From Gluconacetobacter asukensis (lineage in GTDB: Bacteria; Pseudomonadota; Alphaproteobacteria; Acetobacterales; Acetobacteraceae), in contig NZ_JABEQE010000007.1 in NCBI RefSeq assembly GCF_014174375.1, forward strand, positions 1 through 64,000: DNA of 64,000 nucleotides, given 5' to 3'. Of this stretch, positions 17,214 through 41,212 are shown in pieces; positions within the stretch are counted from its first letter, which is position 1, and every line of letters begins with the position of its first letter. A program made the position numbers and the translations under genes. The notes below the pieces were generated by a model. That model was not told the DNA's origin. It was given only the letters and a program-made list of their open reading frames with translations, and ran no database searches.

Positions 17214-17255
17214 GATGTATGATCTAATCTCGTAATGATATCGGAAGGTGTCCGC

Positions 17256-18521
17256 ATGAAACCTGCCAAGCGTGCTTTATGCAGTGCAATGGCCGGAAAT
17301 ATTGTGGAATGGTATGATTTTTCTTTGTACTTGGCCGCTGCCCCGTTAATTTTTAGTCAATTATTCTTTTCGGGAGCGCAGACGGCTTTCATGCATCAGG
17401 TCGAGGCGGCGGCGTTCTTTGCCGCAGGCTTCGTGGTGCGTCCCGTCGGTGGCATTCTATTCGGCTATCTTGGAGACCGCTACGGGCATCTGGTTTCACT
17501 GCGTTGGACGTTGCTCCTGATCGGCGCGGGGACGGCCGCGATTGGAGCGTTGCCCGGTTTCGATACGATTGGCCTTTATGCGCCGTCGATCCTTCTTCTG
17601 CTCCGTCTTGTGCAGGGTGTCGCTGCCGGGGGTGAGTGGGCCGGTAGTATTCTGGTGATCGAAGGTGCAGCCGCGGGCGCGCGGAACAATACCGTACTGT
17701 TGTCCCTGAGTCAGTCCGGCGTTGCGGCTGGCATGGTCCTGGGAACGGTCGCGCTTTGGCTGGCCAGTTGCCTGCCCCATGAAGCATTCCTGCGCTGGGG
17801 GTGGCGAGCGGCCTTCGTGGCGCCTTTACCGTTCGTCGGGCTTGGGATCTTGCTCCGAACCTCGATGGACGGAGGGGCGAGAAGGGTGGAGCCGCACGGC
17901 CTCTCACGCTTTCCGTTGGTGACCCTCTTACGTCGCGAGCCGGTGGCCGTTCTGCGCGGGATCGGCATTCGTCTGGCGGAAAATGGCGGCGTCTATCTGA
18001 TGACCGTTTTCGGCCTGTCGTACGGACGGGAGCAGCATATACCGGACACTGTTCTGCTGCTGGCCATGACACTGGGCCTTGCCGCAGACGGCCTGGCGAT
18101 GCCGCTTTTCGGCTGGCTTGCGGTCCGATACGGCGCGCAGCGCGTCTATCTGGGGGGTATCATCGGGCTCTCCTGTCTGGCGCCGCTATTTTTTCTCCTG
18201 GTCGCGTCGGGCCAAACGGGGTATGTCATGCTTGCCTTCGTTCTGGTCATGGCGCTAGGTCACGCGCCGATGATCGCCGTCGAGCCGATCTTGCTGGCGC
18301 GCCTGTTCGCCGATGGCGAGCGCTATACCGGGGTGGCCGTTTCTCATGAAATCGGGGCGGTGCTGGCGGGCGGCCTTTCACCCCTTATGGCGACGCTTCT
18401 CTATCATGCGAGCGGGAGCGTGAATGGCGTCATTCTCTATCTTCTGCTGCTGGCGACGTTCTCGGCGATCGCACTTTGCGGGCGTGGAATAGGGCGTGAC
18501 AAACCCGCTTCCTTCTCCTGA
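17256..18521 (+). CDS. MHS-family MFS transporter (aromatic acid/metabolite:H+ symporter type)
   Basis: A 421-residue inner-membrane protein with about 12 hydrophobic helices. The start MKPAKRALCSAMAGNIVEWY DFSLY carries the NIVEWYDF motif of the metabolite:H+ symporter family (shikimate, proline/betaine, alpha-ketoglutarate permeases). GYLGDRYGH and RLVQGVAAGGEWAGS are the MFS motifs. The ATG at 17256 is preferred to 17235 because ggaaggt lies just before it. A MarR-type operator-like sequence lies in the leader and the MarR gene follows. I infer uptake of an indole or aromatic acid for the downstream pathway. Confidence 0.82.
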   Translation: MKPAKRALCSAMAGNIVEWYDFSLYLAAAPLIFSQLFFSGAQTAFMHQVEAAAFFAAGFVVRPVGGILFGYLGDRYGHLVSLRWTLLLIGAGTAAIGALPGFDTIGLYAPSILLLLRLVQGVAAGGEWAGSILVIEGAAAGARNNTVLLSLSQSGVAAGMVLGTVALWLASCLPHEAFLRWGWRAAFVAPLPFVGLGILLRTSMDGGARRVEPHGLSRFPLVTLLRREPVAVLRGIGIRLAENGGVYLMTVFGLSYGREQHIPDTVLLLAMTLGLAADGLAMPLFGWLAVRYGAQRVYLGGIIGLSCLAPLFFLLVASGQTGYVMLAFVLVMALGHAPMIAVEPILLARLFADGERYTGVAVSHEIGAVLAGGLSPLMATLLYHASGSVNGVILYLLLLATFSAIALCGRGIGRDKPASFS

Positions 18522-18571
18522 AGGGATGGGCTAGGTCTGCGGACCGTAACAGAGGCGGCTGGGGATAGCAC

Positions 18572-19039
18572 TTGAAGCGCGGCAAAATTTGGCGGCAGGC
18601 GAATCCGACGGATCCCGCCTTCTCCCCCGAGACATCCCCCTTCTTTCACCTGTCCCGCCTGGTCGGGCTTTATCATCTACGCATGGATGCGCACTTGAAG
18701 CCGATCGGGATGGATGTGCCGCGCTGGCGCGTCATCAATATCCTCCATGAGCATGAGTGCGCGACGATCAGTACGATTGCCGATCTGGCGGTGATCCGCG
18801 TCTCGACCATGACCAAGCTGGTCTATCGGATGGAAGGCGAAAGGCTGGTCAGTACTGCGGTCTCATCGACCGACGGTCGCGTTACCGAAGTGCGCCTGGC
18901 CGAGAAGGGGCGTAACGCGCTGGATCAGGTGCGAAGCAAGGCGGGGCTGATCTTTGAGCGCGCGTTTCATGACATCGAGGATGCGGATATACAGACCTTC
19001 ATGACCCTGACACGGAAAATTTACGACAATATTTATTGA
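18572..19039 (+). CDS. iacR: MarR family regulator, probable IacR
   Basis: A 155-residue MarR protein starting at TTG. Winged-helix core at residues about 45-115: PRWRVINILHEHECATISTI, ADLAVIRVSTMTKLVYRMEG, then the wing SSTDGRVTEVRLAEKG. MarR regulators (IacR, IadR) control known indole-acetate clusters and release DNA on binding indole-acetate. Here it stands between the transporter and the catabolic genes. The repeated 16-base dyads in four leaders are the expected type of MarR target. The family call is firm; the IacR identity is inferred from context. Confidence 0.75.
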   Translation: MKRGKIWRQANPTDPAFSPETSPFFHLSRLVGLYHLRMDAHLKPIGMDVPRWRVINILHEHECATISTIADLAVIRVSTMTKLVYRMEGERLVSTAVSSTDGRVTEVRLAEKGRNALDQVRSKAGLIFERAFHDIEDADIQTFMTLTRKIYDNIY

Positions 19040-19052
19040 GGATCGGAGCGGA

Positions 19053-19076
19053 GGGCGCGGTTGCGAATCCGCGCCC
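19053..19076. terminator. Hairpin downstream of the MarR gene
   Basis: An 8-base perfect stem (gggcgcgg / ccgcgccc) with an 8-base loop, 13 bases after the MarR stop. There is no T-run, so it is at best a weak or factor-assisted terminator separating the regulator from the dehydrogenase operon. Confidence 0.4.
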
Positions 19077-19142
19077 CGCCGTCAGTCCCCTGTCCTGGCA
19101 CCGGCCGCAGCCGTGCATGCGGCAAAAAAAATTTGCCAAATA

Positions 19143-19158
19143 AGTGGAATAATCAACT
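19143..19158. promoter_or_regulatory. IacR/MarR-type operator, site 2 (dehydrogenase operon)
   Basis: AGTGGA-ATAA-TCAACT, about 60 bases upstream of the FMN dehydrogenase start. One half-site position differs from a perfect dyad. Same spacing (4) and core as the sites before the TonB receptor and the monooxygenase. Confidence 0.6.
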
Positions 19159-19218
19159 ATTCCATATTAGCATCGGTATCGCTGCCCCTGGCGGCGGCGA
19201 TGCGGGTGTGGAGTAGGC

Positions 19219-20388
19219 ATGATCGTTTCCGTTGACCAGCTCCGTCAGGCTGCGCGTGGCACATTGCCACGCTGGCTGTTTGACTATGTCGATGGCGGTG
19301 CGTACTCAGAAGCGACCCTGAGACGTAACAGGGACGCGCTTGCCGAGCGGCATCTGCTTCCTTTCGTCCTGCGTGGCGTGGCGCGGCCCGATGCCGGCGC
19401 GTCGATCCTGGGTGTCAGGCAACCGTTTCCGATCGGGCTCGCCCCGGTGGGAATGGCCGGCATGCTGGACGCACAGGGAGAGATCGCCGCCGCGCGCGCG
19501 GCGACCGCCCTTGGTGTGCAGATGTGCGTTTCTCACTTCTCGATCTGTTCGATCGAGGAGATCGCGCGTGCTGTCGATCCTGCATTTCTGATGTTCCAGC
19601 TCTATATTTTTCGCGATCGTGCGGTCACCGAGGACATGGTGCGGCGCGCCTGGGCAGCAGGTGTCAGGACGCTGGTCGTGACCGTCGATACCCCGGTCAC
19701 ACCGTTGCGGGAGCGGGATGTCCGAAATGGATTCCGCCAGCTTTCCCGTCTGTCCCTTCGGCATATCGGGCAGATGCTTCCGCGCCCCGGATGGACCTGG
19801 CGCATGGTGCGGCGCGGACATTGCGTGATCGGCAACCTTGTTCCCTACGATATGGGGACGACCCTTTTTTCGCAGGCGGCGGCTATTTCCCGGTCGCTCG
19901 ATCCGGCGATCGGGTGGGACGACATGGCATGGCTGCGTACGATTTGGAAAGGTCGTCTTGTCGTCAAGGGCGTCATGCAGCCGGCCGACGTCGCGACATG
20001 TGCCGATCTGGGCCTGGACGGCGTCGTGCTGTCCAATCATGGCGGACGGCAGCTCGATGGCAGCGCTTCGGCGGTCGATGTGCTGGAGGCCGGCATACGT
20101 GCGGCGAATGCCCGGATTCAGATCCTGGTGGATGGCGGGTTCCGGTACGGTGGAGACGTCGCGAAGGCCCTCATGCTTGGTGCCGCCGGCGTGATGATCG
20201 GCCGCCCGTGGGCTTACGCGCTGGCCGCGAATGGAGAGAAGGGCGTTACCGACGTGCTGAAATATTTCCGGGACGGACTTCTTTCGACCATGACCTTGCT
20301 GGGGGCCGCCGATCTCGGTGCGTTGCGCGGCGGGCGGAAGTCGCTTCTTCTTGAAGCACGCCAGACGACATCGTTCGATGAAGAATAG
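19219..20388 (+). CDS. FMN-dependent alpha-hydroxy-acid dehydrogenase (LldD/MdlB family)
   Basis: A 389-residue TIM-barrel flavoenzyme oxidising an L-2-hydroxy acid to the 2-oxo acid. FMN and substrate motifs: PIGLAPVGMAG (about 75-85), VVTVDTPVTPLRERDVRNGF (about 155-174) and the catalytic SNHGGRQLDG with His275 and Arg278. Length and motifs match L-lactate and (S)-mandelate dehydrogenases. It opens a three-gene operon (10-base gaps) with an aldehyde dehydrogenase and a PQQ dehydrogenase. In an indole context indole-3-lactate would be a logical substrate, and lactate or mandelate are alternatives. The MarR-type site upstream ties it to the same regulon as the dioxygenase operon. Confidence 0.85.
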   Translation: MIVSVDQLRQAARGTLPRWLFDYVDGGAYSEATLRRNRDALAERHLLPFVLRGVARPDAGASILGVRQPFPIGLAPVGMAGMLDAQGEIAAARAATALGVQMCVSHFSICSIEEIARAVDPAFLMFQLYIFRDRAVTEDMVRRAWAAGVRTLVVTVDTPVTPLRERDVRNGFRQLSRLSLRHIGQMLPRPGWTWRMVRRGHCVIGNLVPYDMGTTLFSQAAAISRSLDPAIGWDDMAWLRTIWKGRLVVKGVMQPADVATCADLGLDGVVLSNHGGRQLDGSASAVDVLEAGIRAANARIQILVDGGFRYGGDVAKALMLGAAGVMIGRPWAYALAANGEKGVTDVLKYFRDGLLSTMTLLGAADLGALRGGRKSLLLEARQTTSFDEE

Positions 20389-20397
20389 GGGCATTAG

Positions 20398-21891
20398 ATG
20401 AGCATGACATCCGTCCTGCCCGACGTGCGGACATTTCTTGAACGCCGCCATGGTCTCTACATCGATGGAGGATGGGTGGCCTCCTCCGGCGAGGCGCGGC
20501 TGCCGGTTTTCGACCCTGCGAGCGGGGAGAAGATATCGTCGGTGGCGGACGCCACCGAGCAGGACGTCCAGCGCGCGGTACAGGCGGCGAAGGCGAGTTT
20601 CCTTTCAGGACCATGGCGCGGCATGCCGCCGGTCGCCCGTGAACGAATCCTGCTGCGCTTGGCCGACCTGGTCGAACGTGACGCGGAAATCCTGGCCCAG
20701 CTCGAGACGTTGGAACAGGGAAAATCCATTACCCTGTCACGTATTCTGGAGGCCGGATCGTCACAGGCGTGGATCCGCTATGTCGCGGGTCTAGCAACGA
20801 AAATAACCGGGCAAAGCTTCGACGTATCGATCCCGTTGCCGCCGGGGGCGCGTTACGCGGCCTATACCCGAAAGGAACCGGTCGGTGTCGTCGCCGGTAT
20901 CGTGCCGTGGAATTTTCCGCTTCTGATCGGCGTCTGGAAAGTATTGCCGGCCCTGGCGGCCGGGTGTTCCGTCGTTGCCAAACCGTCTGAAACGACCCCG
21001 CTGACGATGCTGCGCCTTGCCGAACTGGCGACCGAGGCGGGAGTCCCGGATGGTGCATTCAACGTCGTGACCGGCAGCGGCGGCGTCGCCGGTGAGGCGC
21101 TCGTGCAGCATCCGGATATCGCCAAGGTCAGTTTCACGGGTTCGACGCCGGTCGGCAAGCGCATCGCCCGGAATTGTGCGTCGCGTCTGGCCCGCGTGTC
21201 CCTGGAACTGGGTGGAAAGAACCCGGCGATCGTCCTGGCGGATGCGGATGTCGACCGTGTGGTCGGCGGATTGACCTTGGCTGGCTTTCTCAATCAGGGG
21301 CAGGTCTGCGCGGCATGTTCCCGAGTGTATGCCGAGGCGTCGATTTTCGATCGGGTGGTGGCGGGATTGCAGCAGGCGGTGACCGGTATGTCCATCGGGC
21401 CCGGCATGGATGAGACGGCGCAAATCAACCCCGTCGCGTCGCAGGCTCATCAGAAAAGGATTCAGTCTTACCTGGAGCGGGCGGAAAAGGCAGGAGCGGA
21501 GATCCTGTCGGGACCTCCCGCACCGGAGGGACGCGGATTCTACGTTCCGCCCGCCCTTGTCGTGAAGCCCGACGATACGCTCCCGCTTGTACGAGAAGAG
21601 GTATTCGGACCGGTCATGACGGTCACACGCGTGGCCAACGCCGAAGAGGCGCTCGTGCGGGCCAACGACACGCCCTTCGGTCTGGCCGCGAGCGTCTGGA
21701 CCGGCAGCCTTCAGGCGGCGATGGAACTGCCGCCCCTGTTGCAGGTCGGGACAGTGTGGGTGAACAGTCACGTCATGATCGATCCGAATATGCCGTTCGG
21801 CGGTATGAAAGAGTCCGGGGTCGGCCGGGATTTCGGAACGGGATGGCTCGATGCCTTCACCGAAACGAAATCCATCTGCGTTCGGTATTGA
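20398..21891 (+). CDS. NAD(P)-dependent aldehyde dehydrogenase
   Basis: A 497-residue ALDH of standard length, close in pattern to phenylacetaldehyde/betaine-aldehyde types. Key residues: [20 protein letters not shown], the nucleotide loop [11 protein letters not shown], the general base Glu270 in LELGGKN, and the nucleophile Cys304 in [11 protein letters not shown]. Cytosolic. It lies between the FMN dehydrogenase and the PQQ dehydrogenase, so it is placed to oxidise the aldehyde made by either to an acid. In the proposed pathway that is indole-3-acetaldehyde to indole-3-acetate. Confidence 0.9.
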
Positions 21892-21900
21892 GACGACATC

Positions 21901-24012
21901 ATGCGGAATCGATTCTCGCGCTACGGTCTCGTCGTGGCGTGCCTTTCCATGCCGGTGACGGCCGTGTTCTCCGGCGCGTCGGCCGACGATAATCCATCGG
22001 ACTGGCCTCAGCACGGCCGTACGGCCTTCGAGCAGCGATTCAGCCCGCTGGACCAGATCAATACGCGGACGATCGGGAGACTGGGGCTGGCCTGGCACCA
22101 GGATTTCGACACGTCCCGCGGGCAGGAAGGCACGCCGCTGATCGTCGACGGCGTCATGTACGTGACGACCAGCTGGAGCAAGGTCGAGGCGCTGGATGCC
22201 GCGACCGGGCGTGTCCTGTGGCGTCACGACCCGGCGGTTCCGGGGGGCGTCGCGGTCAGGGGATGCTGCGATACGGTCAATCGCGGCGCCGCGTACTGGG
22301 ACGGGCGCGTGTATGTCGGGACGTTCGACGGCAGGTTGATCGCCCTGGACGCGAAGAGCGGTCGCCTGGACTGGAGCGTGAATACGATTCCGCACGATGC
22401 CACCTTGGGCGATATCCGTTCCTACACGATCGATGCGGCGCCGCGGATCGCCAAGGACGTTGTGATAATCGGCAATGGAGGGGCGGAGTTCGGGGCCCGC
22501 GGGTTCGTGTCCGGATTCGACGCCCGGACCGGTCGGTTGAAATGGCGTTTCTTTACGGTGCCGGCACCCGGAAACCAGCCTGACCATGCGGCGTCCGACA
22601 ACGTTCTGTCGTCGGTCGCCTACAAGACCTGGAGTCCGACAGGTGGATGGACCCATTCCGGTGGCGGCGGTACCGTCTGGGATTCGATCGTCTATGATCC
22701 CGTGACCGGTCTGGTCTATCTGGGGGTGGGAAACGGCGCCCCCTGGAACTACAAATTCCGTTCGAACGGGGAAGGGGATAACCTGTTCCTGGCCAGCATC
22801 GTCGCCATCAGGCCGGAAACGGGCGAGTATGTCTGGCATTTCCAGGAAACGCCGAAAGACCAGTGGGACTTCACCGCGTCCCAGCCCATGATGGTGCTGG
22901 ACCTGCCTGTCCAGGGGCGGATGCGCCATGTCCTTGTCCAGGCGCCGAAGAATGGCTTTTTCTATACGCTGGACGCGCGGACCGGTGCCTTTATATCGGC
23001 GATACCTTATACGTTTCTGAACTGGGCGAAGGGTATCGATCCGAAGACGGGGCGTCCGGACATCGTGCCCGACGCCTTGTGGTCGCTGACCGGCAGGACG
23101 TGGTTCGGCATTCCCGGTTCGCTCGGCGGACATAACTGGGCGCCGATGGCTTACAGCCCGCAGACCGGATACGTCTACATCCCGGCACAGCAATTGCCCG
23201 AGCCGTTCAAGGCGGATGACCATATGCGCCTGCACGATATGGGCGTGAATCTCGGCATAGACATGTCGGGGCTGCCGGCCGACCCGAAGGTGCTGGCCGC
23301 TGTCGGGAAGACCGTGCAGGGGTGGCTGCTGGCCTGGGATCCGGTTGCAGGCAAGGCCGCGTTCCGCGTGCAGCACGATACGCCATGGAACGGCGGCGTC
23401 CTGGCTACAGCCGGGGGCCTTGTCTTTCAGGGGCTCGCCACGGGCGGATTCGAAGCATACGACGCCCGCACCGGCGCGCGCCTGTATCATTTCGACGCCC
23501 ATAGCGGGATTGTCGCGCCACCGGTCGCATATGCTGTCCATAACCGCCAGTATGTAGCGGTCGAAGTGGGCTGGGGCGGCATCTTTCCGCTGATGGGCGG
23601 GGCCTTGGCAAGGATGCGCAACGACAGCGTGAATCATTCTCGCTTGCTCGTTTTTGCGTTGGACGGGAAAGATCGCCTGCCGGCAGACAGCCGGCCTGTT
23701 CAGACCCTGGCGGACGGGGTGGGATCGTTCGAGCCCGAGCGCGCAAGACGCGGCTATGTATCCTATCAACATTTCTGCATGGCGTGTCATGGCGACAACG
23801 CGATTGCCGGCGGTGTGCTGCCGGACCTGCGCTGGTCGGGGGCGCTCGGCAGTCCCGATGGCTTCTATAGCATTGCAGGGATGGGGGCATTGAAGAATTT
23901 CGGCATGGTTGGCTTCTCCAGCGTTCTGAAGCCCCAGGAGATCGAAGACATCCGGCAGTTCCTGATCAGCCGCGCCCGACATGATGCCGCTCTTGGCGAA
24001 GATAAAAAATAA
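21901..24012 (+). CDS. Periplasmic PQQ-dependent alcohol dehydrogenase with C-terminal cytochrome c (quinohaemoprotein)
   Basis: A 703-residue protein with an N-terminal signal (RYGLVVACLSMPVTAVFSG ASA), an eight-bladed PQQ propeller and a C-terminal haem-c domain (CMACH at 626-630). The adjacent-cysteine pair Cys122-Cys123 (RGCCDTVNRG) stacks on PQQ. The catalytic aspartate is Asp323 in DQWDFTASQP. The residue two further on is Thr325, not Asp, so it looks calcium-type rather than lanthanide-type. Type II/IIG quinohaemoproteins oxidise primary or bulky alcohols in the periplasm and pass electrons to the respiratory chain. Here it is co-transcribed with an aldehyde dehydrogenase; tryptophol or another aryl-alcohol is a reasonable guess. 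Confidence 0.9.
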   Translation: MRNRFSRYGLVVACLSMPVTAVFSGASADDNPSDWPQHGRTAFEQRFSPLDQINTRTIGRLGLAWHQDFDTSRGQEGTPLIVDGVMYVTTSWSKVEALDAATGRVLWRHDPAVPGGVAVRGCCDTVNRGAAYWDGRVYVGTFDGRLIALDAKSGRLDWSVNTIPHDATLGDIRSYTIDAAPRIAKDVVIIGNGGAEFGARGFVSGFDARTGRLKWRFFTVPAPGNQPDHAASDNVLSSVAYKTWSPTGGWTHSGGGGTVWDSIVYDPVTGLVYLGVGNGAPWNYKFRSNGEGDNLFLASIVAIRPETGEYVWHFQETPKDQWDFTASQPMMVLDLPVQGRMRHVLVQAPKNGFFYTLDARTGAFISAIPYTFLNWAKGIDPKTGRPDIVPDALWSLTGRTWFGIPGSLGGHNWAPMAYSPQTGYVYIPAQQLPEPFKADDHMRLHDMGVNLGIDMSGLPADPKVLAAVGKTVQGWLLAWDPVAGKAAFRVQHDTPWNGGVLATAGGLVFQGLATGGFEAYDARTGARLYHFDAHSGIVAPPVAYAVHNRQYVAVEVGWGGIFPLMGGALARMRNDSVNHSRLLVFALDGKDRLPADSRPVQTLADGVGSFEPERARRGYVSYQHFCMACHGDNAIAGGVLPDLRWSGALGSPDGFYSIAGMGALKNFGMVGFSSVLKPQEIEDIRQFLISRARHDAALGEDKK

Positions 24013-24044
24013 ATCGAATACAGAATGATTCGAATAGACAATTA

Positions 24045-24060
24045 AGTGGAAATTTCACAT
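24045..24060. promoter_or_regulatory. IacR/MarR-type operator, site 3 (TonB receptor)
   Basis: AGTGGA-AATT-TCACAT, about 140 bases upstream of the receptor start in an otherwise gene-free leader of 187 bases. Two half-site positions differ from the perfect dyad at 26636. Confidence 0.6.
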
Positions 24061-24199
24061 GATAAATCGACCTCCGGCTCCGGACGGGGCCAGGGGATAC
24101 GGATTATGACGGCAGACGGACTTCATGCGGGGCGGTCTGTCGGGATAAACATTACGATATGGTTCCATTCCGGCTTGAACGTGCGCCGGATGACGAGGA

Positions 24200-26581: not shown

Positions 26582-26592
26582 CCATGAGCTCT

Positions 26593-26627
26593 GCCGGACC
26601 TGGGGTATCCTCGTCCGGCTGATTTTT
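26593..26627 (+). terminator. Rho-independent terminator after TonB receptor
   Basis: A 7-base perfect stem (gccggac / gtccggc) with a 13-base loop, followed closely by a five-T run (26623-26627). It lies 12 bases after the receptor stop and just before the next operator, so the dioxygenase operon has its own promoter. Confidence 0.7.
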
Positions 26628-26632
26628 CAGAA

Positions 26633-26654
26633 TTTAGTGGAAATATCCACTAAA
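26633..26654. promoter_or_regulatory. IacR/MarR-type operator, site 4 (dioxygenase operon), perfect dyad
   Basis: TTTAGTGGA-AATA-TCCACTAAA: a perfect 9-base inverted repeat with a 4-base spacer, about 110 bases upstream of the monooxygenase start. It is the best example of the shared motif and probably the strongest binding site, in front of the main catabolic operon. Confidence 0.7.
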
Positions 26655-26762
26655 TGACGATAATCTATCGTTGATGCTTCGGCCGGATGAAAGGTTTCTG
26701 ATGAACAGGTATGAGTCGGATGGGGAACTGGCCGTTGCGATCGCGCCGAGGGTGGCCTCCCG

Positions 26763-27917: not shown

Positions 27918-27957
27918 AGCGGCAATTTTCTGAAGATTTTTACGAGGGAAGAGGCAT

Positions 27958-29241
27958 ATGCAGGATTTACCCGACCCCCGGACACTCCTCGCGCCCGATC
28001 GGGCCGACGGATCGATCTATAGTGACCCCGACCTGTACGACATGGAGATGGATCGCATCTTCATGCATAACTGGATCTGGGTCGCGCATCGCAGCGAAAT
28101 TCCGGAACCGGGCGATTTCATCACGACGTTCGTCGGGCCGCATCCGGTCATCGTCTGTCGCGATCGGCAAGGTGTCGTGCACGTGATGCTGAACCGCTGC
28201 CGCCATCGCGCGGCGACGGTCTGCGAACTCAGGCGCGGGAAGACGGCCAGCTTTGTCTGTCCTTATCATGGCTGGGCCTACGGGCTGGACGGGACGCTGC
28301 GGGGCGTCCCGCATCAGGAAGGCTATAGCGGGCACCTCGACAAATCGTCTCTTCCATTGGTGAATCTGCGCGTCGAGGAATATAACGGCCTGGTTTTCGC
28401 CACGTTCGACGAAACGATCCCGTCGCTCGATTCATGGCTGGGTCGGGCAAAACCCTGGATCGACCTGTTCATGAAACAGGGTGCGGGCTGGCCGGTGAAG
28501 ACCATGGGCGAGCATAAATTCACTTTTCCGGGCAACTGGAAGATCCAGCTCGAAAACACGACCGACGCCTATCATTTTCCGATCGTGCACAAGTCGTTCC
28601 TGGATTCCGTCGACCAGGAAACACAGGATACGCTGAACTTCGTCGGCGGAAAGGGATTCGTCGAGGATCTGGGCAACGGTCATTCCGTTATGGTCATGAT
28701 CCCGGAACTGGTGGATCTGGACGAGAATCTCGACGCGCCGATCCCCGAACGTTTCGCCGAACTGGCGGCCGGGCTGTCGAAGGACTACCCGTCGGAAAAA
28801 GTGCGCCAGATCATCCGCGCCGTGGGCGGTTCGGGATTCAACCTGAACCTTTTCCCGAACCTGGCCTGTTCCATGGCTTTCTTTCGCGTGCTGCGCCCTT
28901 TGAGCGCGACATCGACCGAAATCCGGCATATCGCCATCGGCATGGATGGCGGTCCGGACGTCGCCAACCAGGCGCGCCTGCGTCTGCACGAGCATTTTCA
29001 GGGGCCGATGGGTTTCGGCACACCCGATGACGCCGAGGCGTGGGATCGGGTACAGCGCGGTTCGCTGGCAGGAAAGAACATAGACATTCTGCTGAATCGC
29101 GGCTTGGGGCACGAGGCGCGGCGACCGGATGGGAACCTGTACAGCGATGTCAGCGCCGAAACCGGCATGCGTGCCGCCTACCGCCAATGGCTTGTCGCGA
29201 TGACGGATAAGGCTTTTCCCGCCGAGGGAGAAGGTGCATGA
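27958..29241 (+). CDS. iacC: Rieske non-haem iron oxygenase alpha subunit, probable IacC
   Basis: A 427-residue catalytic subunit. The Rieske cluster ligands are Cys81-x-His83 and Cys101-x2-His104 (NRCRHRAATV, CPYHGWAYG). The mononuclear iron site has Asp203, His206 and His211 in TTDAYHFPIVHKS, followed by the substrate-binding C-domain. Its stop overlaps the start of the beta subunit by 4 bases. In iac/iad clusters the alpha-beta oxygenase acts after the monooxygenase/SDR steps on the hydroxylated indole-acetate. Confidence 0.82.
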   Translation: MQDLPDPRTLLAPDRADGSIYSDPDLYDMEMDRIFMHNWIWVAHRSEIPEPGDFITTFVGPHPVIVCRDRQGVVHVMLNRCRHRAATVCELRRGKTASFVCPYHGWAYGLDGTLRGVPHQEGYSGHLDKSSLPLVNLRVEEYNGLVFATFDETIPSLDSWLGRAKPWIDLFMKQGAGWPVKTMGEHKFTFPGNWKIQLENTTDAYHFPIVHKSFLDSVDQETQDTLNFVGGKGFVEDLGNGHSVMVMIPELVDLDENLDAPIPERFAELAAGLSKDYPSEKVRQIIRAVGGSGFNLNLFPNLACSMAFFRVLRPLSATSTEIRHIAIGMDGGPDVANQARLRLHEHFQGPMGFGTPDDAEAWDRVQRGSLAGKNIDILLNRGLGHEARRPDGNLYSDVSAETGMRAAYRQWLVAMTDKAFPAEGEGA

Positions 29242-29711
29242 GCATCACGCTGCAGGATGCGGTCGCGTTGATCGCGCTGGAGGCCGATCTGCTGGATCAT
29301 GGCGCGTTCCGCGACTGGCTGACGCTTTATACGTCCGACGGCCGATATGTCGTGCCGATCGATCCGGACGTCGAGGATTTCGAGAGCGTCCTGAATTACG
29401 CCTATGACGACGCGGCGATGCGGGAAAAGCGCGTCGAACGCCTGCTGGGGGGACGGTCGATCTCGGCCGCGCCGCCTGCCCGGACCGTTCGTCTGCTGTC
29501 GCGCTACCGGATGCTGGAGACCACGGACGCGACCTGCACACTGCGCTGCGCGCAGCACCTGATGGAACTTCGCCAGGGGCGTCAGCGCGACTATGCCGCC
29601 AATGTCACGTATCGCCTGAAGAACACGGACGGGGGACTGAAGATCGACCTGAAGGTCATCCGCCTTCTGACCGCGACCGAGGCGCTGACGGCCGTGAGTT
29701 ATATCCTGTGA
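29238..29711 (+). CDS. iacD: Ring-hydroxylating dioxygenase beta subunit, probable IacD
   Basis: A 157-residue NTF2-fold small subunit. Conserved parts: EADLLDHGAFRDWLTLYTSD GRYVVP, the R(L)LSRYRMLET region, and YAANVTYRLKNTDGGLKIDL at the end. It is structural, pairing with the alpha subunit at 27958. The start overlaps alpha (ATGA) and the stop overlaps the SDR (GTGA), so the three are translationally coupled. Confidence 0.82.
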   Translation: MSITLQDAVALIALEADLLDHGAFRDWLTLYTSDGRYVVPIDPDVEDFESVLNYAYDDAAMREKRVERLLGGRSISAAPPARTVRLLSRYRMLETTDATCTLRCAQHLMELRQGRQRDYAANVTYRLKNTDGGLKIDLKVIRLLTATEALTAVSYIL

Positions 29712-30442
29712 CGCCTGTCGCGCTCATAACGGGCGGTGCCCGGGGGCTTGGCGCCTGCATCGCCGGGCAACTCGCGGCCGGGGGGTACCAGGTCGTGCTT
29801 GGGGACATCGACCCGGCCGCGGCGGCGGAGACGGCGCGCCGGCTGGGTGATGGCGCGGCGGCGCTGGGACTCGATGTCTCGTCCGAAAGTGGCGTTGATT
29901 CGGCACTGGATGAGGTGGAACGGCGTTTCGGGCTGCCGTGGCTGCTGGTCAACAATGCCGCGATCATGAAGGCGCAGAAGGTCCTGGAGATCGACATCGC
30001 GACGTTCGACGCGGTGATGGCCGTCAATCTGCGCGGGACGTTTCTGTGCAGCCAGCGCTTCGCGCGTCGTCTTCGGGCGCGGGAGCAGGAAGGCCGGATC
30101 GTGAATATCGGTTCGCTTGCCGGCCAGAACGGCGGGACGGCCACCGGCGCGCATTATGCCGCGTCGAAGGGGGCGGTTCACACGCTGACCAAGGTTTTCG
30201 CCCGCGACCTCGCGCCGTTCGGAATTACCGTGAACGCGATCGCGCCGGGGCCGCTGGATCTGCCATCGGTGGGCGAGACGATCGGGGTGGAAAACGCCGC
30301 CCGCGTCTTCGCCGGCCTGCCGACCGGCAAGCCGGGCGACCCGCGGACCGTCGCCCGGATGGTCGTGGAACTGGCCCGGCCGGATGCCGGCGGGATCACG
30401 GGGACGACCATCGACATCAATAGCGGGCTTTACCTGCGATGA
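29708..30442 (+). CDS. iacE: Short-chain dehydrogenase/reductase, probable IacE
   Basis: A 244-residue classical SDR. Rossmann motif TGGARGLG near residue 8, NNAAI at about 80-84, and the catalytic Ser near 136 with YAASK near 149-153 (GAHYAASKGAVHTL). It starts at GTG inside the beta-subunit stop codon. Known IacE acts with IacA to give dioxindole-acetate. NAD(P) preference is not clear: the residue after the second strand is Asp (GDIDP), which favours NAD. Confidence 0.8.
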   Translation: MTPVALITGGARGLGACIAGQLAAGGYQVVLGDIDPAAAAETARRLGDGAAALGLDVSSESGVDSALDEVERRFGLPWLLVNNAAIMKAQKVLEIDIATFDAVMAVNLRGTFLCSQRFARRLRAREQEGRIVNIGSLAGQNGGTATGAHYAASKGAVHTLTKVFARDLAPFGITVNAIAPGPLDLPSVGETIGVENAARVFAGLPTGKPGDPRTVARMVVELARPDAGGITGTTIDINSGLYLR

Positions 30443-31398
30443 GTGATACCGGTGTGATCGACGTGACCGTCGCGGCGGTCGAGCGGATGGGACGTGTCTT
30501 GTGTTTCGACCTGCGCGCCGTCTCCGGCCAGCTGCCCGCGTGCCGGGCGGGCGCGCATGTCGACCTGTATCTCGGGGACGGGCTGATACGCCAGTATTCG
30601 CTTTGCGGTGATCCGGCGGACCGGGAACGGTATAGGCTGGCGGTGCTTCTGGAACCGGCGTCTCGTGGTGGGTCGCGCCGCGTGCATGAGATCGTGTCGC
30701 CCGGTGCGATCTTGCAGGCGGGACAGCCGCGAAACCTCTTTCCTCTGGCGGTGGGGGCATCCCGTTCCGTGTTGGTCGGGGGAGGAATCGGCGTGACCCC
30801 CCTGATCGCCATGGCATACGAACTGCACGCGGCGGGAGCGCCCTTTACCTTGCATTATATCGCCCGCGATCCGGTCTTCGCGGATCTTCTGTTCCGGACC
30901 CCGTTCGCGGGGGCGGTACGGATCCATGACCGCAGCGATGCCGCGTCGCCGCGTTTCGAACCTGCCGCCGTGCTGTCGGCGGCCGTGGCAGATGGCGCGG
31001 CCGTTGCCGGCCTGCATGTGTATAGCTGCGGCCCCAACAGTCTGATGGATGCGGTGGACGCCGCGGCGAAGGCGATCGGCCTGCCGGACGACAACGTGCA
31101 TCGCGAGGCGTTTTCCGCGCTGCCCGTCGCGGGCGGAATGGGTTTCGAGGTTCTGGCCGCCAAATCCTCCGTGCGGGTGTCGGTCGGAGAGAACGAGACC
31201 ATCGCGGCGGCCCTCGCGCGGGTGGGGGTGAAAGTCGCCGTCAGCTGCGAACAGGGTATCTGCGGGACATGCGTGGTGGACCTGCTGGAAGGGATGCCGG
31301 ATCACCGGGACGAGTATCTGACCGAGGAGGAGCGGTCGGAGCAGATCGCGCTGTGCTGCTCGCGCGCGCGCTCGCCGCTTCTGGTGGTCGATCTCTGA
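30439..31398 (+). CDS. iacF: Phthalate-dioxygenase-reductase-type electron-transfer protein, probable IacF
   Basis: A 319-residue three-domain reductase. FMN-binding barrel (YLGDGLIRQYSLCGDPADRE), NAD domain (VLVGGGIGVTPLIAMAYELH) and C-terminal plant-type 2Fe-2S ferredoxin (SCEQGICGTCVVDLLEG; ligands Cys270, Cys275, Cys278 and a cysteine at about 307). It delivers electrons from NAD(P)H to the Rieske oxygenase. Length and domain order match VanB/IacF proteins. ATGA overlap with the SDR. Confidence 0.85.
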   Translation: MSDTGVIDVTVAAVERMGRVLCFDLRAVSGQLPACRAGAHVDLYLGDGLIRQYSLCGDPADRERYRLAVLLEPASRGGSRRVHEIVSPGAILQAGQPRNLFPLAVGASRSVLVGGGIGVTPLIAMAYELHAAGAPFTLHYIARDPVFADLLFRTPFAGAVRIHDRSDAASPRFEPAAVLSAAVADGAAVAGLHVYSCGPNSLMDAVDAAAKAIGLPDDNVHREAFSALPVAGGMGFEVLAAKSSVRVSVGENETIAAALARVGVKVAVSCEQGICGTCVVDLLEGMPDHRDEYLTEEERSEQIALCCSRARSPLLVVDL

Positions 31399-32390
31399 TG
31401 CCGGGGCTGAAGATCTGCGTGGCCGGGGTCGGGGCGATGGGGGGGATGCTCGCCGGCATGCTCGCCCGCACGGACGTGGACCTGTCGCTCGTCGCGCGTG
31501 GCGAAACGCTCCGGACCCTTCGGGAACAGGGGCTGACCGTGCATGACGGGCAGTCGGCGCGCATCGTGCGATGCGCCGCGAATACGCGCGCGCCCGACAC
31601 GGTGCAGGACGTCGTCATCCTGGCGGCCAAGTCCCAGCAGCTTCCCGCGCTGGCTGCGTGCGTGTCGCACGCCGTCGGACCGCAGACGCTGGTCGTGCCG
31701 GTCGTCAACGGCCTGCCGTGGTGGATGACGCTGCCGACAGGAAGCCCCTGCGGCGCGGCCCGCGCCTGCCTGGATCCGGGGGGAGAGCTTGCGCGCGCGT
31801 TTCCTCCCGCCCGCGTGGTCGGGTGCGTGGCCTATGCGTTCGCATCGCTGGATGCGCCGGCGGTCGTGCGATCGGCGAAGGCGCCGACACTGGTGCTGGG
31901 GCGCGTCCAGGGGGGGAACGCCGACGACCCGGAGGTGGCGGCGCTGGTGCAGGTTCTGGACGCGGCGGGCGTCGTGATCACCCCCAGCCCCGACATACGG
32001 TGCGATGTGTGGGCCAAGCTGGCGGTCAATCTTGCCACGAATCCGCTTTCGGTTGTGTGTGAGGAGACATTGGGCGGGCTCGTCGCGGCACCGCCGACGC
32101 GTCAGGTCGTCCGCGACATGCTAGAAGAGGCCGTCACCATCGGCCGGGCATGTGGTTTCGGCCCTCTTCGCAGCGTGGACGAACAACTTGGCTCCATCGC
32201 CGTGGCAGACGGTCATCGGACGTCGATGCTTCAGGATTACCAGGCGGGCCGCGCGCTTGAACTGGACGCGATCGGATATGCGGTCATGCGGGTGGGGGCT
32301 GTCTGCGGCGTGCCCATGCCCGTAACCGCGACAATTCTCAGGCTGGCGGATTTCAAGGCCGCGCGGCCGGACAGGCAGGGAAATCGCTGA
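31398..32390 (+). CDS. Ketopantoate-reductase-family (ApbA/PanE-like) protein
   Basis: A 330-residue NADPH-dependent 2-oxoacid reductase family member. Rossmann motif GVGAMGG near residue 10, the C-terminal 6PGDH-like helical domain with the catalytic-lysine region VWAKLAVNLATNPLSVV, and HRTSMLQDYQAGRALELDAI. The ATG (31398) shares a base with the reductase stop (TGATG); a longer ORF from 31269 is an artefact. Its insertion between probable iacF and the class II aldolase is not part of the basic iac set. A second, divergent paralogue lies at 41213-42181. Probably reduces a 2-oxo or 2-oxo-lactone intermediate rather than ketopantoate. Confidence 0.75.
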   Translation: MPGLKICVAGVGAMGGMLAGMLARTDVDLSLVARGETLRTLREQGLTVHDGQSARIVRCAANTRAPDTVQDVVILAAKSQQLPALAACVSHAVGPQTLVVPVVNGLPWWMTLPTGSPCGAARACLDPGGELARAFPPARVVGCVAYAFASLDAPAVVRSAKAPTLVLGRVQGGNADDPEVAALVQVLDAAGVVITPSPDIRCDVWAKLAVNLATNPLSVVCEETLGGLVAAPPTRQVVRDMLEEAVTIGRACGFGPLRSVDEQLGSIAVADGHRTSMLQDYQAGRALELDAIGYAVMRVGAVCGVPMPVTATILRLADFKAARPDRQGNR

Positions 32391-33148
32391 TGACCATGGG
32401 AGTTCAAGAGGAAGAATGGCAGCTCCGGACACGACTGGCCGAATGCTACCATCTGATCAGTTATCATGGCTGGACGGAGATGATCTTCAATCATATCTCC
32501 GTCCGCCTGCCGGGTGAGCCGAAGCGCTACCTGGTGAACGCGTTCGGGCTGAATTACGACGAGGTCACACCAGAAAACCTTTTGGTCGTCAACGCGGACG
32601 GCCAACTGGTCGGGGATGCCTCCAGCAAGCCCAATCCGGCGGGTTTCGCTCTGCATGGGGCGATCCATGCGGCGCGGGACGACATTCACTGCATCATACA
32701 TACCCACACGAACGCGGTCTGCGCCGTCGCGATGAAGCAGGACGGCTTCAGCCACGACAATTTTTACGGCGCGCAACTTTTCGGCCGTGTCGGCTACCAT
32801 GATTTCGAGGGCATCACCCTGTATGACGAGGAACGCCCCAGGATGCTGGCCAGCCTGGGCGACAAGCATGTGCTGGTACTGCGCAACCATGGAATCGCGG
32901 TCGGGGAAAGCGACGTCGCACGGGCCTTCTTCCTGCTGTGGACTGTCCAGCGCGCCGCGGAAATCCAGTGTCACGCCGGCATGATTCCGGGGGCGGACGT
33001 CATTATTGCCGATACCGTCAAGCAGGCATGCGCGCGCGACGCGGCACGGCTGATCGCCAGATCATCGGCGGCGGACAAGATGTTCGACGCGGCGGTTCGC
33101 AAGATGCGCAGGGAACGCGGCCCGCTATGGCCGGGGGATAAAACATGA
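32390..33148 (+). CDS. Class II aldolase/adducin-family protein
   Basis: A 252-residue protein of the zinc-dependent class II aldolase fold. Metal ligands are visible as CIIHTHTNAVCAVA (His-x-His) and VLRNHGIAVG; SYHGWTEMIFNHISVRLPGE is the N-terminal signature. Family members act as aldolases, or as decarboxylases of dihydroxy-aromatic acids (for example 3,4-dihydroxyphthalate decarboxylase). In this operon a retro-aldol or decarboxylation of an aromatic or ring-cleavage intermediate is likely. TGATG junction upstream and ATGA junction downstream. Confidence 0.8.
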   Translation: MTMGVQEEEWQLRTRLAECYHLISYHGWTEMIFNHISVRLPGEPKRYLVNAFGLNYDEVTPENLLVVNADGQLVGDASSKPNPAGFALHGAIHAARDDIHCIIHTHTNAVCAVAMKQDGFSHDNFYGAQLFGRVGYHDFEGITLYDEERPRMLASLGDKHVLVLRNHGIAVGESDVARAFFLLWTVQRAAEIQCHAGMIPGADVIIADTVKQACARDAARLIARSSAADKMFDAAVRKMRRERGPLWPGDKT

Positions 33149-33627
33149 CCGGCGTGACGGCGGACGAATTCCGCAAGGCCATGTCGCATTTCGCGACAGG
33201 TGTGGCCGTGGTCATGGCGGCGGGAGACGAGGGAGAACACGGGGCGACAATCAGCGCGCTCAGTTCAGTCTCGCTCGATCCTTTGACGCTGCTGGTCTGC
33301 CTGAATCGCAAAAGTGCGACCTGTCGCGCCATCGAAAAAAACGGGCGCTTCGGTCTGAGCATACTGCGACGGGACCAAGTGGATATCGCCCGGCATTTTG
33401 CCATGCCGGCCCATGCCAAGACAGTGCATGACCACGGTATCCGCCATGCCGACGGCACGTCCTTCGTCCGGGGTGCCCTGGTGCAGATCGGCCTTGAGGT
33501 CGTGGAGACCCTGTGGGGCGGAACGCACGAGGTCTTTATGGCGAGGCCGCTGCATATCGCCATGAATGTCCGGTCCGAGGTCGAGCCGCTTCTGTATTAC
33601 CGGGGGACGTTTGACCTGACGCCCTGA
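33145..33627 (+). CDS. iacG: Flavin reductase (RutF/HpaC family), probable IacG
   Basis: A 160-residue flavin reductase of the two-component monooxygenase type. FRKAMSHFATGVAVVMAAGD at the N-terminus, GATISALSSVSLDPLTLLVC LN and KSATCRAIEKNGRFGLSIL follow the family pattern. It supplies FADH2 or FMNH2 to the monooxygenase at 26763. Overlaps the aldolase gene by 4 bases. Confidence 0.85.
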   Translation: MTGVTADEFRKAMSHFATGVAVVMAAGDEGEHGATISALSSVSLDPLTLLVCLNRKSATCRAIEKNGRFGLSILRRDQVDIARHFAMPAHAKTVHDHGIRHADGTSFVRGALVQIGLEVVETLWGGTHEVFMARPLHIAMNVRSEVEPLLYYRGTFDLTP

Positions 33628-33655
33628 CGAAGCCAGCGGGAAGGAGAAACGACGC

Positions 33656-34903
33656 ATGCACGACGAGACAGAGCAGGAAATCGCCACGCGCCTTATCGGC
33701 CGTGTTGATCGGTACGAGTCCACCATTCGGGCCTTCGCTAGCTACGATCCCGCCCGGGCAAGGCAGGAGGCCGCGACGGCCGCGCAGGGGCCGCTGTCCG
33801 GCCTGTCCGTGGGCATCAAGGACATCATCGATACGGCGTATTATCCCACCGGGCACGGGTCGCCCATCTATGACGGGAACCATACGCGAAACGACGCGGC
33901 CTGCGTCACGCTTCTCCGGCAGGCCGGCGCATTGTGCGTCGGCAAGACGGTGACCACGGAATTTGCATTTTTTCGCGCGGGCGCCACCGTCAATCCGCAC
34001 GATCTGTCCCGGACGCCGGGCGGTTCCTCAAGCGGTTCCGCCGCCGCGGTTGCCGCCGGCATGATCGATATCGGGCTGGCATCGCAGACGGCGGCATCGC
34101 TGACCCGGCCGGCATCCTATTGCGGGATCGTCGGATTCAAACCATCCTACGGGCGCTATGCGGCGGCTGGCGTCAAGGGGCTTGCACCGTCGTTCGATAC
34201 GCTGGGAACATTGACGGCCGACGTGGCGACGGCCGTGCTGGCGGATGGCGTTCTGAAAGGTCCGTGTCCAGTCCGCATGACGCCGTCGGCCCGGGCGCCG
34301 GCGCGTATCGGCCTGTGCCGCACCCCTTGGTGGGACGAGGCGGAGGATTCCACGCGCCTGGCGCTACTGGATTCGGGCCGGCGTTTCGGTAGCCATGCCG
34401 ATGTGGAGGACGTCGACCTGTCGGCGTTCTCGGACGCGGCGGATCTTCATGTCACGATCATGAGTTATGAAGCCGCTCAGGCTCTGGCATGGGAATTCAC
34501 CGACAGGCGCGCCCTGATGAGCCAGCAGATCGTCGGCCTGTTGGAAGCCGGACGGGCGATCGGATACGAGACGTACCGCGCTGCCCTGACACGCGCCGCC
34601 GCCTTGCGCGAGCGGATCGACACTCTGTTCGATCGCTACGACGTGCTGCTTGCGCCCGCCGCGCCAGGGGTTGCGCCGAAACGGGAGCAGGGTACGGGCA
34701 GCCCAATTTTCAGCCGGCTGTGGACGCTGGTGCGGTTGCCGACCGTAACGTTACCTGGTCCGGTAGGGGACGGCGGCCTGCCGGTGGGCGTGCAACTGCT
34801 GGGTCGGATCGGAAGCGACGAGGATTTGCTGAATGTCGCCGCATGGGCGGAGGCTATCTTGCCCGCGCGGCCCGTTCCGGCTATCTGCCGACAGGGGGAG
34901 TAG
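33656..34903 (+). CDS. iacH: Amidase-signature hydrolase, probable IacH
   Basis: A 415-residue amidase-signature enzyme (GatA type). The Ser-cisSer-Lys triad can be placed at Lys55 (VGIKDIIDT), the serine-rich loop GGSSSGSAAAV near 122-132, and the nucleophile Ser148 (ASQTAASLTRPASY). IacH in known clusters is an amidase of this type with an incompletely defined role, likely hydrolysing an indole-derived amide or lactam, or releasing indole-acetate from amide conjugates. Lies 28 bases after the flavin reductase. Confidence 0.8.
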   Translation: MHDETEQEIATRLIGRVDRYESTIRAFASYDPARARQEAATAAQGPLSGLSVGIKDIIDTAYYPTGHGSPIYDGNHTRNDAACVTLLRQAGALCVGKTVTTEFAFFRAGATVNPHDLSRTPGGSSSGSAAAVAAGMIDIGLASQTAASLTRPASYCGIVGFKPSYGRYAAAGVKGLAPSFDTLGTLTADVATAVLADGVLKGPCPVRMTPSARAPARIGLCRTPWWDEAEDSTRLALLDSGRRFGSHADVEDVDLSAFSDAADLHVTIMSYEAAQALAWEFTDRRALMSQQIVGLLEAGRAIGYETYRAALTRAAALRERIDTLFDRYDVLLAPAAPGVAPKREQGTGSPIFSRLWTLVRLPTVTLPGPVGDGGLPVGVQLLGRIGSDEDLLNVAAWAEAILPARPVPAICRQGE

Positions 34904-35470
34904 ATGACAACTCCGACGTTGGAACACCGTCTGGACGCCCTGGCGGCGCGCGTGGCGCAACTGGAAGCCGAGGCGGAGATCCGCCGGATTCAGGCACGGT
35001 ATATGTTCCTGTGCGATACGCCATGCCCCGAATTCGGCATCATGGACGATGCGCAGCGCATCGATCGGATCATGGACCTCTACGCCGAAGATGCGATCTG
35101 GGAGGGCGTGGGCGATTATTATGACAACCAGTTCGGACGCTGTGTCGGCAAGGCGGCCATACGTACGCATTTTGAAAGTTTCTGGAATGAAAAACGCGAC
35201 CCGAATTTGCTTCTGAACGTCCATTATCTGACATCCGAGCAGATTCACGTCCACGGCGATACGGCGGATGGCCAATGGGTGCACTGCCAGCCATGGATTT
35301 TCAGTGACGGGACATCCCTGCTGCGGTCGAGCCGGCTGAACAATCTTTTCCGGCGCCAGGGCAATGTCTGGAAAATCACGTGCACCCGAACGGAAAATCT
35401 GTTTGTCGCGCCGCTGCCGGCTGGCTGGGCCGGCAGCTTTCCTGCGCGTTCCGTACTGATGAAGCCGTGA
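34904..35470 (+). CDS. NTF2/SnoaL-like protein, possible IacI
   Basis: A 188-residue protein with an N-terminal coiled-coil helix (LEHRLDALAARVAQLEAEAE) and a SnoaL-4-type cone (IMDLYAEDAIWEGVGDYYDN, VHYLTSEQIHVHGDTADGQW). It starts immediately after the amidase stop. Small NTF2-like proteins in indole and indole-acetate clusters act as cofactor-independent oxygenases or accessory proteins, so IacI is a candidate name, but I cannot verify this. Confidence 0.65.
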   Translation: MTTPTLEHRLDALAARVAQLEAEAEIRRIQARYMFLCDTPCPEFGIMDDAQRIDRIMDLYAEDAIWEGVGDYYDNQFGRCVGKAAIRTHFESFWNEKRDPNLLLNVHYLTSEQIHVHGDTADGQWVHCQPWIFSDGTSLLRSSRLNNLFRRQGNVWKITCTRTENLFVAPLPAGWAGSFPARSVLMKP

Positions 35471-35575
35471 GGATGTTCAGAAAATTTCCCATTCATGGTT
35501 TTTACCACTTCCTTCCCCTGCCCGAGCGCATGTGTTCGAGCAGGATCAGTTCTGCCATGGCAGGAAAGGACGAAC

Positions 35576-35971
35576 ATGACCGATATCGCTGATGCGGTGA
35601 CCAAGGAGATCGTGGAGCTGCATCGTCTGTTGCAGGCGTGGTTTTGCGGCGAGGGAACGAATGATCCCGAGGTCATCCTGGAACGGTTCGATCCCGGCTA
35701 CATGATGGTGGGTGCGGCCGGCCGCGTCGTGAGTTATGAGGATTTCCGGAAAATTCTTCCCGCGCTGCACGGTTCGCGCCCGACGCTGGTCATGCAGATC
35801 TCTGACGTTCGGGTCTGTCATGCATTCGAAGGGGGTGTCCTGGCCTTCTATCGGGAAGTCCAGACCACGGGGGAAAGCCGCAACGCACGCTGGTCCAGCG
35901 TCATGTTCCTGTTTTCAGAGGACGGTCAGGCGTTGCGCTGGCGGCATCTGCACGAAACGTTCGTGGCCTGA
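35576..35971 (+). CDS. Small NTF2-like (DUF4440-type) protein
   Basis: 131 residues from the ATG at 35576, preceded by ggaaagga; the ORF is open from 35495. Pattern: EIVELHRLLQAWFCGEGTND, FDPGYMMVGAAGRVVSYEDF, and ARWSSVMFLFSEDGQALRWR HLHETF. A one-domain cone-fold protein without cofactor motif. It is separated from the previous gene by 105 bases and is probably the last gene of the catabolic operon or its own unit. It could be the counterpart of the cofactorless oxygenase of indole pathways; speculative. Confidence 0.65.
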   Translation: MTDIADAVTKEIVELHRLLQAWFCGEGTNDPEVILERFDPGYMMVGAAGRVVSYEDFRKILPALHGSRPTLVMQISDVRVCHAFEGGVLAFYREVQTTGESRNARWSSVMFLFSEDGQALRWRHLHETFVA

Positions 35972-37569: not shown

Positions 37570-37589
37570 TTCCAAGGAGATCATCAAGG

Positions 37590-41175: not shown

Positions 41176-41212
41176 GGGCTTCGCCCGTTCCTCCTCCATG
41201 GTCTCGTCAACG

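Follow-up and report, generated by a model that had tools for sequence, protein, structure and literature searches.

Acetic acid bacteria (AAB) live on fruit, on flowers and in fermentations. A gene cluster in one of them, Gluconacetobacter asukensis, raises the question of whether these bacteria can break down the auxin indole-acetate by an iac-type pathway, and with which proteins. The cluster lies on the forward strand, at 17197–35971 of a 64,000-nucleotide stretch (contig NZ_JABEQE010000007.1, positions 1 to 64,000; the window). A limited literature search gave no report of an iac cluster in AAB. We consider it fairly probable that this is a variant iac system for auxin catabolism, run as one regulon, and that a protein here called N takes the place of IacB; this would extend auxin degradation to AAB.

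A cluster of iac type

The proteins of the window were compared with those of the iac-type loci of Enterobacter soli, Pseudomonas putida 31303 and Acinetobacter kanungonis, and with five plasmid loci, found in a tblastn scan of a plasmid collection and read with their annotation, one of which names an “IacB protein”. Relatives of five core enzymes stand in a row: an IacA-like flavin monooxygenase of acyl-CoA-dehydrogenase fold (26763–27917; 47–55% identity to IacA of iac-type loci), an IacC-like Rieske alpha subunit (27958–29241; 60–68%), an IacD-like beta subunit (29238–29711; 42–52%), an IacE-like short-chain dehydrogenase/reductase (29708–30442; 43–56%) and an IacF-like Fe-S reductase (30439–31398; 43–51%). 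The plasmid records hold iac-type proteins that reach 55% to the window IacA. With the IacR-like MarR regulator (18572–19039; best PDB match 7KUA, E 2e-28, given as P. putida IacR in the excerpt seen), relatives of the canonical IacA, IacC, IacD, IacE, IacF and IacR are all present. Residues C81, H83, C101, H104, H206 and H211, which we take to be the Rieske and iron ligands of IacC, are kept in ten aligned IacC proteins.

The remaining genes fit less well. The flavin reductase (33145–33627; PF01613) is only 26–33% identical to IacG, and the amidase, here Hw (33656–34903; nearest solved relative malonamidase E2), only 29–35% to IacH; in one locus, L060, both amidase types were assigned together. 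The first-pass annotation of this DNA had taken R, A, C, D, E, F, G and H as the defining iac set. That holds for R and for A, C, D, E and F, but G is related only weakly and H is an amidase of a different subfamily, so the set is not canonical. IacI was missing from the claimed set; its likely counterpart is the SnoaL-type protein S* (34904–35470; PF13577), which is 30–37% identical to IacI, forms a separate subfamily and shares 67% with a Gemmobacter NTF2 protein. By sequence, then, the cluster is of iac type with a non-canonical gene set. When closest homologues were checked, the Rieske alpha subunit came out nearest to the iac-type loci among those compared; the best solved structure for the IacA-like protein is Rv3094c, and no chain in that match list is named IacA.

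The open reading frames (ORFs) follow one another in the same direction, many with short overlaps of a few bases, as first described. The classes then named (MarR regulator, FMN hydroxyacid dehydrogenase, aldehyde dehydrogenase, PQQ alcohol dehydrogenase, monooxygenase, Rieske alpha and beta, short-chain dehydrogenase, Fe-S reductase, flavin reductase, amidase) all correspond to Pfam or NCBIfam matches. Absent from that list were a TonB receptor gene at 24200, two genes between the Fe-S reductase and the flavin reductase (31398–33148), and two NTF2/SnoaL-type genes after the amidase (S* at 34904, N at 35576).

An iad-type locus was considered and ruled out, since IacA is present, the Rieske alpha subunit resembles those of iac-type loci and no iad marker (iorB/iadB or iotA/iadA) was found among the scanned cluster genes, the genome not having been searched for them. 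The iad locus of Variovorax and Bradyrhizobium is like the window in its Rieske oxygenase pair, reductase and MarR regulator, but according to the excerpted literature its pathway opens with the Rieske enzyme and leads to anthranilate, whereas the window has IacA; the two are set apart here without direct IadD sequence comparison.

The iac clusters of Pseudomonas putida 1290, Enterobacter soli, Acinetobacter, Paraburkholderia and Caballeronia are like the window in IacA, C, D, E and F (42–68%), the IacR-like regulator and the IacI-like SnoaL protein. They are unlike it in several ways: in the window IacB is not found and N is there instead, the flavin reductase and amidase are divergent (26–35%), two further genes, KPR and ALD, are inserted, oxidation and TonB genes are preceded by the same operator-like site, and no catechol dioxygenase is recognized in the genome. 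Marinomonas sp. NFXS50 (PMC11373566, seen in part) has a class II aldolase, a 2-dehydropantoate 2-reductase and an alpha-hydroxyacid dehydrogenase beside iac, and its amidase is likewise far from IacH (28.6% to that of P. putida). Unlike the window, it also carries IacB as well as genes for ABC transport and for ortho-cleavage of catechol, while a PQQ alcohol dehydrogenase and N are not among the genes given in that part. Further sources, also available in part, are PMC12633357 (a preprint), PMC11630574 and PMC10374108.

N, a probable stand-in for IacB

IacB is, like IacI, a marker of the iac operon (PMC9613470, in excerpt), and no IacB was found in the window or the genome. No clear iacB homologue had been seen at first, and tblastn with five IacB proteins bears this out for the window (best E 0.096); searches of the whole genome extend it (best E 0.58 in one, nothing at E 1e-5 in another). 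The cluster ends instead with N (35576–35971, start chosen in this analysis), whose only PDB sequence match is 1tp6 (PA1314). A reading of 35495–35971 as a second MarR gene was rejected, its product being NTF2-like.

A scan of GTDB genomes gave at least 581 relatives, of which the best 80 were kept. The best 13 of these, from 11 species, are AAB with 79–87% identity in IacC; they all belong to Gluconobacter, Gluconacetobacter, Nguyenibacter or Acetobacter, in keeping with the acetic acid bacterium first proposed as host. Gene strings were read by ORF assignment in 89 loci: 79 of the 80 (L080, a duplicate of L020, was dropped), nine others and the window. IacB is found in 64 of them and N in 16, never both; nine have neither (L026, L030, L032, L033, L037, L040, L072, L081, L089). 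Among these nine, the genomes of L026, L030 and L040 carry N elsewhere in the assembly, and the strains of L032 and L033 have another iac locus among those listed.

Among 35 chosen genomes (that of G. asukensis, four family members, 11 AAB and 19 other relatives from the scan), 19 have a strong match to N (E ≤ 1e-40) and 16 have IacB, with no overlap and none without either (Fisher p = 2e-10, for genomes that are not independent). In 385 genomes of the class, N gave a strong match in its own genome only (at most 10 candidates per genome were scored at first), and three weak matches (E 1e-16 to 1e-21) have no iac gene within about 1.5 kb; this adds little on specificity, because the sample holds no further N-type iac genome.

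N is not a remote IacB, since the model folds differ: N is predicted to adopt an NTF2 fold (pLDDT 88; TM 0.93 to 1tp6 by target length), and IacB a ferredoxin-like fold, with YgiN as best PDB match (E 2.5e-4). The preferred reading is that N replaces IacB as a stand-in of unrelated fold, which we regard as likely. According to the available parts of PMC7225977 and PMC9613470, neither what IacB does nor the route leading from dioxindole-acetate to catechol has been resolved; a natural replacement of IacB by a protein of different fold, without exception in the 35 chosen genomes, would offer a direct genetic test of the role of IacB.

A shared operator-like site

A palindrome, TTTAGTGGAAATATCCACTAAA, stands before iacA (26635–26651). 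Similar sites, picked by eye from intergenic stretches, precede the genes for an MFS transporter and IacR (17197–17213), the three oxidation genes (19142–19158) and the TonB receptor gene (24044–24060). The transporter is of MHS/shikimate type by profile matches (17235–18521), and the TonB-dependent receptor, also a profile match, occupies 24200–26581 with an uncertain start codon. The operator pattern was built from these four sites and matches them exactly by construction. At up to one mismatch, the whole 4.39-Mb draft holds the four sites (two of them matched on both strands) and a single further one, C35:8875; the reversed pattern, used as a control on the same genome, gave no match. In the window, up to two mismatches gave nine matches at seven places, against 0.39 expected. 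The extra genomic site (C35:8875–8891; G000, L124) has a MarR-family gene about 0.7 kb away.

Related loci were tested in 12 stretches with a matrix made from the window sites only, over 300 bases upstream of and 60 inside each gene. A gene was called positive if at most 1 of 100 first-order Markov shuffles of its stretch reached the score. The site was found before the hydroxyacid dehydrogenase gene (5/5), the TonB gene (5/5), the orthologous MFS gene (3/3) and iacA (7/11), some divergent genes sharing a site. A second MFS gene was positive in 2/7 and the aldehyde dehydrogenase gene in 1/7; the PQQ alcohol dehydrogenase gene, iacR and ten other cluster genes were never positive in these stretches (0/117). 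Several of the aldehyde dehydrogenase genes sit behind the hydroxyacid dehydrogenase gene, and the site is not significant in divergent arrangements. L029, the one Acetobacter locus that has both the hydroxyacid dehydrogenase and TonB genes, has the operator before each.

The first-pass annotation had placed the upstream oxidation genes in the same programme as iac, and the operator agrees. Because they share it with iacA and MFS-iacR, these genes are placed in one regulon with iac in the window strain, and the same probably applies in Gluconobacter, Gluconacetobacter and Nguyenibacter. The MarR protein presumably binds the operator-like sites. Sites of this kind were also seen in the iac loci of Enterobacter soli (L043, 6525) and P. 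putida 31303 (L103, 3893), so different iac types may share a conserved site.

The oxidation module

The module consists of an FMN-dependent 2-hydroxyacid dehydrogenase (HADH; 19219–20388; PF01070, nearest solved relatives L-lactate oxidase and (S)-mandelate dehydrogenase), an aldehyde dehydrogenase (ALDH; 20398–21891) and a PQQ-dependent alcohol dehydrogenase with a cytochrome c domain (PQQ-ADH; 21901–24012). The ALDH is nearest to the NCBIfam model of the phenylacetaldehyde dehydrogenase StyD, with 629 bits, below the cut-off of 850. The best PDB match of PQQ-ADH is 8gy2, the dehydrogenase subunit of a quinone alcohol dehydrogenase; an AdhB-like cytochrome subunit was not found among the scanned cluster genes. 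Going by their families, the three enzymes would fit the oxidation of tryptophol and indole-lactate. In the excerpted literature, cells with published IacA and IacE take 3-(2-hydroxyethyl)indole directly, and the module therefore need not be obligatory.

Accessory genes

KPR (31398–32390, start chosen in this analysis; PF02558/PF08546) belongs to the ketopantoate reductase (PanE/ApbA) family and ALD (32390–33148; PF00596) to the class II aldolase/adducin family. The nearest solved relatives are 2-dehydropantoate 2-reductases for KPR, and for ALD a class II aldolase/adducin domain protein (3ocr) and adducins. No function is on record for either as far as was found, and a literature search for the pair together with indole gave nothing. 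By ORF assignment the two occur together in 20 of the 89 loci, with KPR alone in 2 and ALD alone in 1; tblastn placed KPR in 8 further Pseudomonas and Azospirillum loci, where the ORFs had missed it, perhaps because it extends past the end of the locus. KPR and ALD come directly after F in the window, L024–L029 and L017, and after G in Ideonella, Sphaerotilus, Curvibacter, Azohydromonas and Aquabacterium; in Bradyrhizobium they lie a few kb off, beside branched-chain-type ABC genes. Standing beside iac in several groups and in Marinomonas, KPR, ALD, HADH and Hw are candidates for the missing side-chain chemistry.

One locus, L032, has a C-D-F set with Hw and the SnoaL-type protein and without A and E, and iacCDF is duplicated in P. 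putida 1290 (PMC6624763). Because of these two cases, the cluster may be split into a lower half, made of CDF, amidase and SnoaL protein, and an upper half of A, G and E with IacB or N. Partial C-D-F sets, in some cases accompanied by genes for an amidase and a SnoaL protein, were seen in L032, L033, L030, L081 and L098, from Gluconacetobacter sacchari, Nguyenibacter, A. tropicalis and Pseudomonas, L030 being perhaps partial through a short contig. As a guess, CDF could dihydroxylate dioxindole-acetate at the ring-fusion carbons to give catechol and a C4 oxo-acid amide, which the amidase would hydrolyse. Acetobacter conturbans has a gene for malic enzyme inserted between N and iacR (L031, 16397–18073).

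Fate of the expected catechol

Catechol ring-cleavage genes had been found missing from the window, and the absence extends further: no intradiol dioxygenase (PF00775) was found anywhere in the genome, and nothing there matches the catechol 2,3-dioxygenase model. The genome does give nine PF00903 matches, seven in frames of 129–178 residues and two in one of 642. One LigB protein is nearest to a 4,5-DOPA-extradiol-dioxygenase model and a second Rieske protein matches a glycine betaine monooxygenase model, both below cut-off.

PF00775 was matched in 3 of 13 AAB genomes (A. orleanensis, G. dulcium and G. sacchari) and in 18 of 22 others. In Acetobacter orleanensis, catB-catC-catA-pcaD all exceed their model cut-offs and are accompanied by a CatM/BenM-like LysR gene; then follow ALD, KPR, an OprB porin, MFS, an IacR relative, PQQ-ADH, ALDH and iac. 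The matches in G. dulcium and G. sacchari are adjacent pairs, putative PcaGH by appearance. A catechol dioxygenase is thus unrecognized in 12 of the 13 AAB genomes, that of G. asukensis included, and catechol is likely the product in the AAB group. Exit by meta-cleavage was considered and rejected: among 16 genomes compared with the catechol 2,3-dioxygenase model, only two non-AAB controls pass the cut-off, other extradiol families not having been searched. Three AAB genomes (G204, G206, G209) fall below that cut-off and above the one for HpaD, which acts on 3,4-dihydroxyphenylacetate. Genes of 4-hydroxyphenylacetate type were seen in AAB (L130, L131, L132), with HpaD over cut-off in three genomes and an HpaB-like protein in A. 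tropicalis.

A model and its alternatives

In the proposed model, indole-acetate or a related ligand would relieve the IacR-type MarR repressor and so switch on four units: MFS-iacR, HADH-ALDH-PQQ-ADH, the TonB receptor gene, and iacACDEF-KPR-ALD-G-Hw-S*-N. IacA with the flavin reductase would hydroxylate the indole ring and IacE would oxidize the product to dioxindole-acetate, as published for relatives in the excerpts available. IacCDF, the amidase and the SnoaL protein, judged by their relatives, would carry this on to catechol, with N in place of IacB. PQQ-ADH and ALDH probably feed in tryptophol or a similar aryl-ethanol as the acid, and HADH, KPR and ALD probably handle 2-hydroxy or 2-oxo acids, either indole-lactate-type substrates or the side-chain remnant. 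The expected catechol meets no recognized ring-cleavage enzyme in this strain and might be released. All substrates and reactions given for this strain are inferred. The model draws on the identities of the core enzymes, the kinship to IacR, the N/IacB complementarity with its repeated switches and different predicted folds, the operator-like site in this genome and in relatives, the neighbourhood of cat genes, ALD, KPR, PQQ-ADH, ALDH and iac in A. orleanensis, and the published chemistry of IacA and IacE. A broader and doubtful extension is that auxin catabolism in AAB is a PQQ-linked regulon, in which tryptophol or indole-lactate from yeasts and plants would be oxidized to indole-acetate by a vinegar-type dehydrogenase together with partner enzymes, followed by an iac variant whose IacB was swapped more than once for an unrelated NTF2-fold protein and which stops at catechol in strains like G. 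asukensis.

Several results weigh against this model. The genome searches gave neither an intradiol nor a catechol 2,3-type enzyme, so that use as a carbon source would be conjectural. Indole-pyruvate decarboxylase is missing among the scanned cluster genes, the genome not having been searched for one; the “complete funnel” of the first-pass annotation is not borne out here, because oxidation of indole-lactate would yield indole-pyruvate. The operator test misses iacA in 4/5 Acetobacter loci (it finds it in L035) and ALDH in 6/7. Weaker N-like proteins (E 1e-21 to 1e-26) are present elsewhere in three IacB-bearing genomes, and the confidence of the IacB fold is moderate (pLDDT 80.6, five models ranging from 57.7 to 80.6).

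The complementarity of N and IacB could reflect lineage only, alphaproteobacterial against other iac types, with N no stand-in at all. Two groups of related loci hold most of the N rows, the 35 genomes do not count as independent, and with folds predicted to differ, identical chemistry of N and IacB is not obvious. This reading is nevertheless somewhat unlikely. Trees were built from joined A, C, D and E proteins for 54 of the 89 loci (near-copies and partial loci dropped) and for 27 chosen rows; the N/IacB label changes twice in the former and three times in the latter, and starred branches force at least two changes. G169 sits inside the AAB group (support 100/100), yet has IacB and no N. 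A single clade of N rows was rejected (p-AU 1.9e-6; the rows were named after the first tree, and L026 and L040 were counted as N on account of the N elsewhere in their genomes), and IacB types do exist among alphaproteobacteria (L015, L021, L056, L078). The HADH-ALDH-PQQ-ADH genes might instead serve general alcohol or phenylethanol oxidation and merely adjoin iac. The nearest relatives of PQQ-ADH and ALDH are in line with this, genes for phenylacetaldehyde and opines also adjoin iac in P. putida 1290 (PMC6624763), and in Acetobacter loci the operator is mostly unseen before ALDH. We hold this to be rather improbable, as the operator is common to module and iac in the window strain and precedes HADH in 5 of 5 related loci. 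Furthermore, ALDH and PQQ-ADH stay close to iac in several related loci despite changed arrangement, and the Marinomonas cluster, in the part of its report seen, holds an alpha-hydroxyacid dehydrogenase as well. Finally, the cluster might degrade another indole or aryl-acid, its divergent G, Hw, S*, N, KPR and ALD reflecting this. The low identity of G and Hw and the additional KPR, ALD and HADH genes speak for it, as does the range of 3-substituted indoles that published IacA and IacE oxidize, according to excerpts. However, IacC, IacA and IacE are as near to the types of indole-acetate degraders as those are to each other in phyla-wide samples, and the same additional genes occur in Marinomonas NFXS50, called indole-acetate-degrading in its paper. 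Of the three alternatives, this one seems to us the least likely.

Flanks of the cluster

Downstream, 36187–42262 encodes an MFS transporter, an octopine-dehydrogenase-family protein (37590), a 3-hydroxyacyl-CoA-dehydrogenase-type protein and a CapA-type protein, and, on the opposite strand, a second ApbA-type reductase. The octopine-type protein shares 60–68% identity with proteins encoded close to iac in loci of Pseudomonas, Acinetobacter and G059; 9 of the 89 loci, the window among them, have such a protein. Integrase-core genes (rve, transposase-type) lie on both sides, at 16215–17030 and 43603–44391, so that the cluster looks potentially mobile. At 62.6%, its GC content differs little from that of the rest of the window (61.7%).

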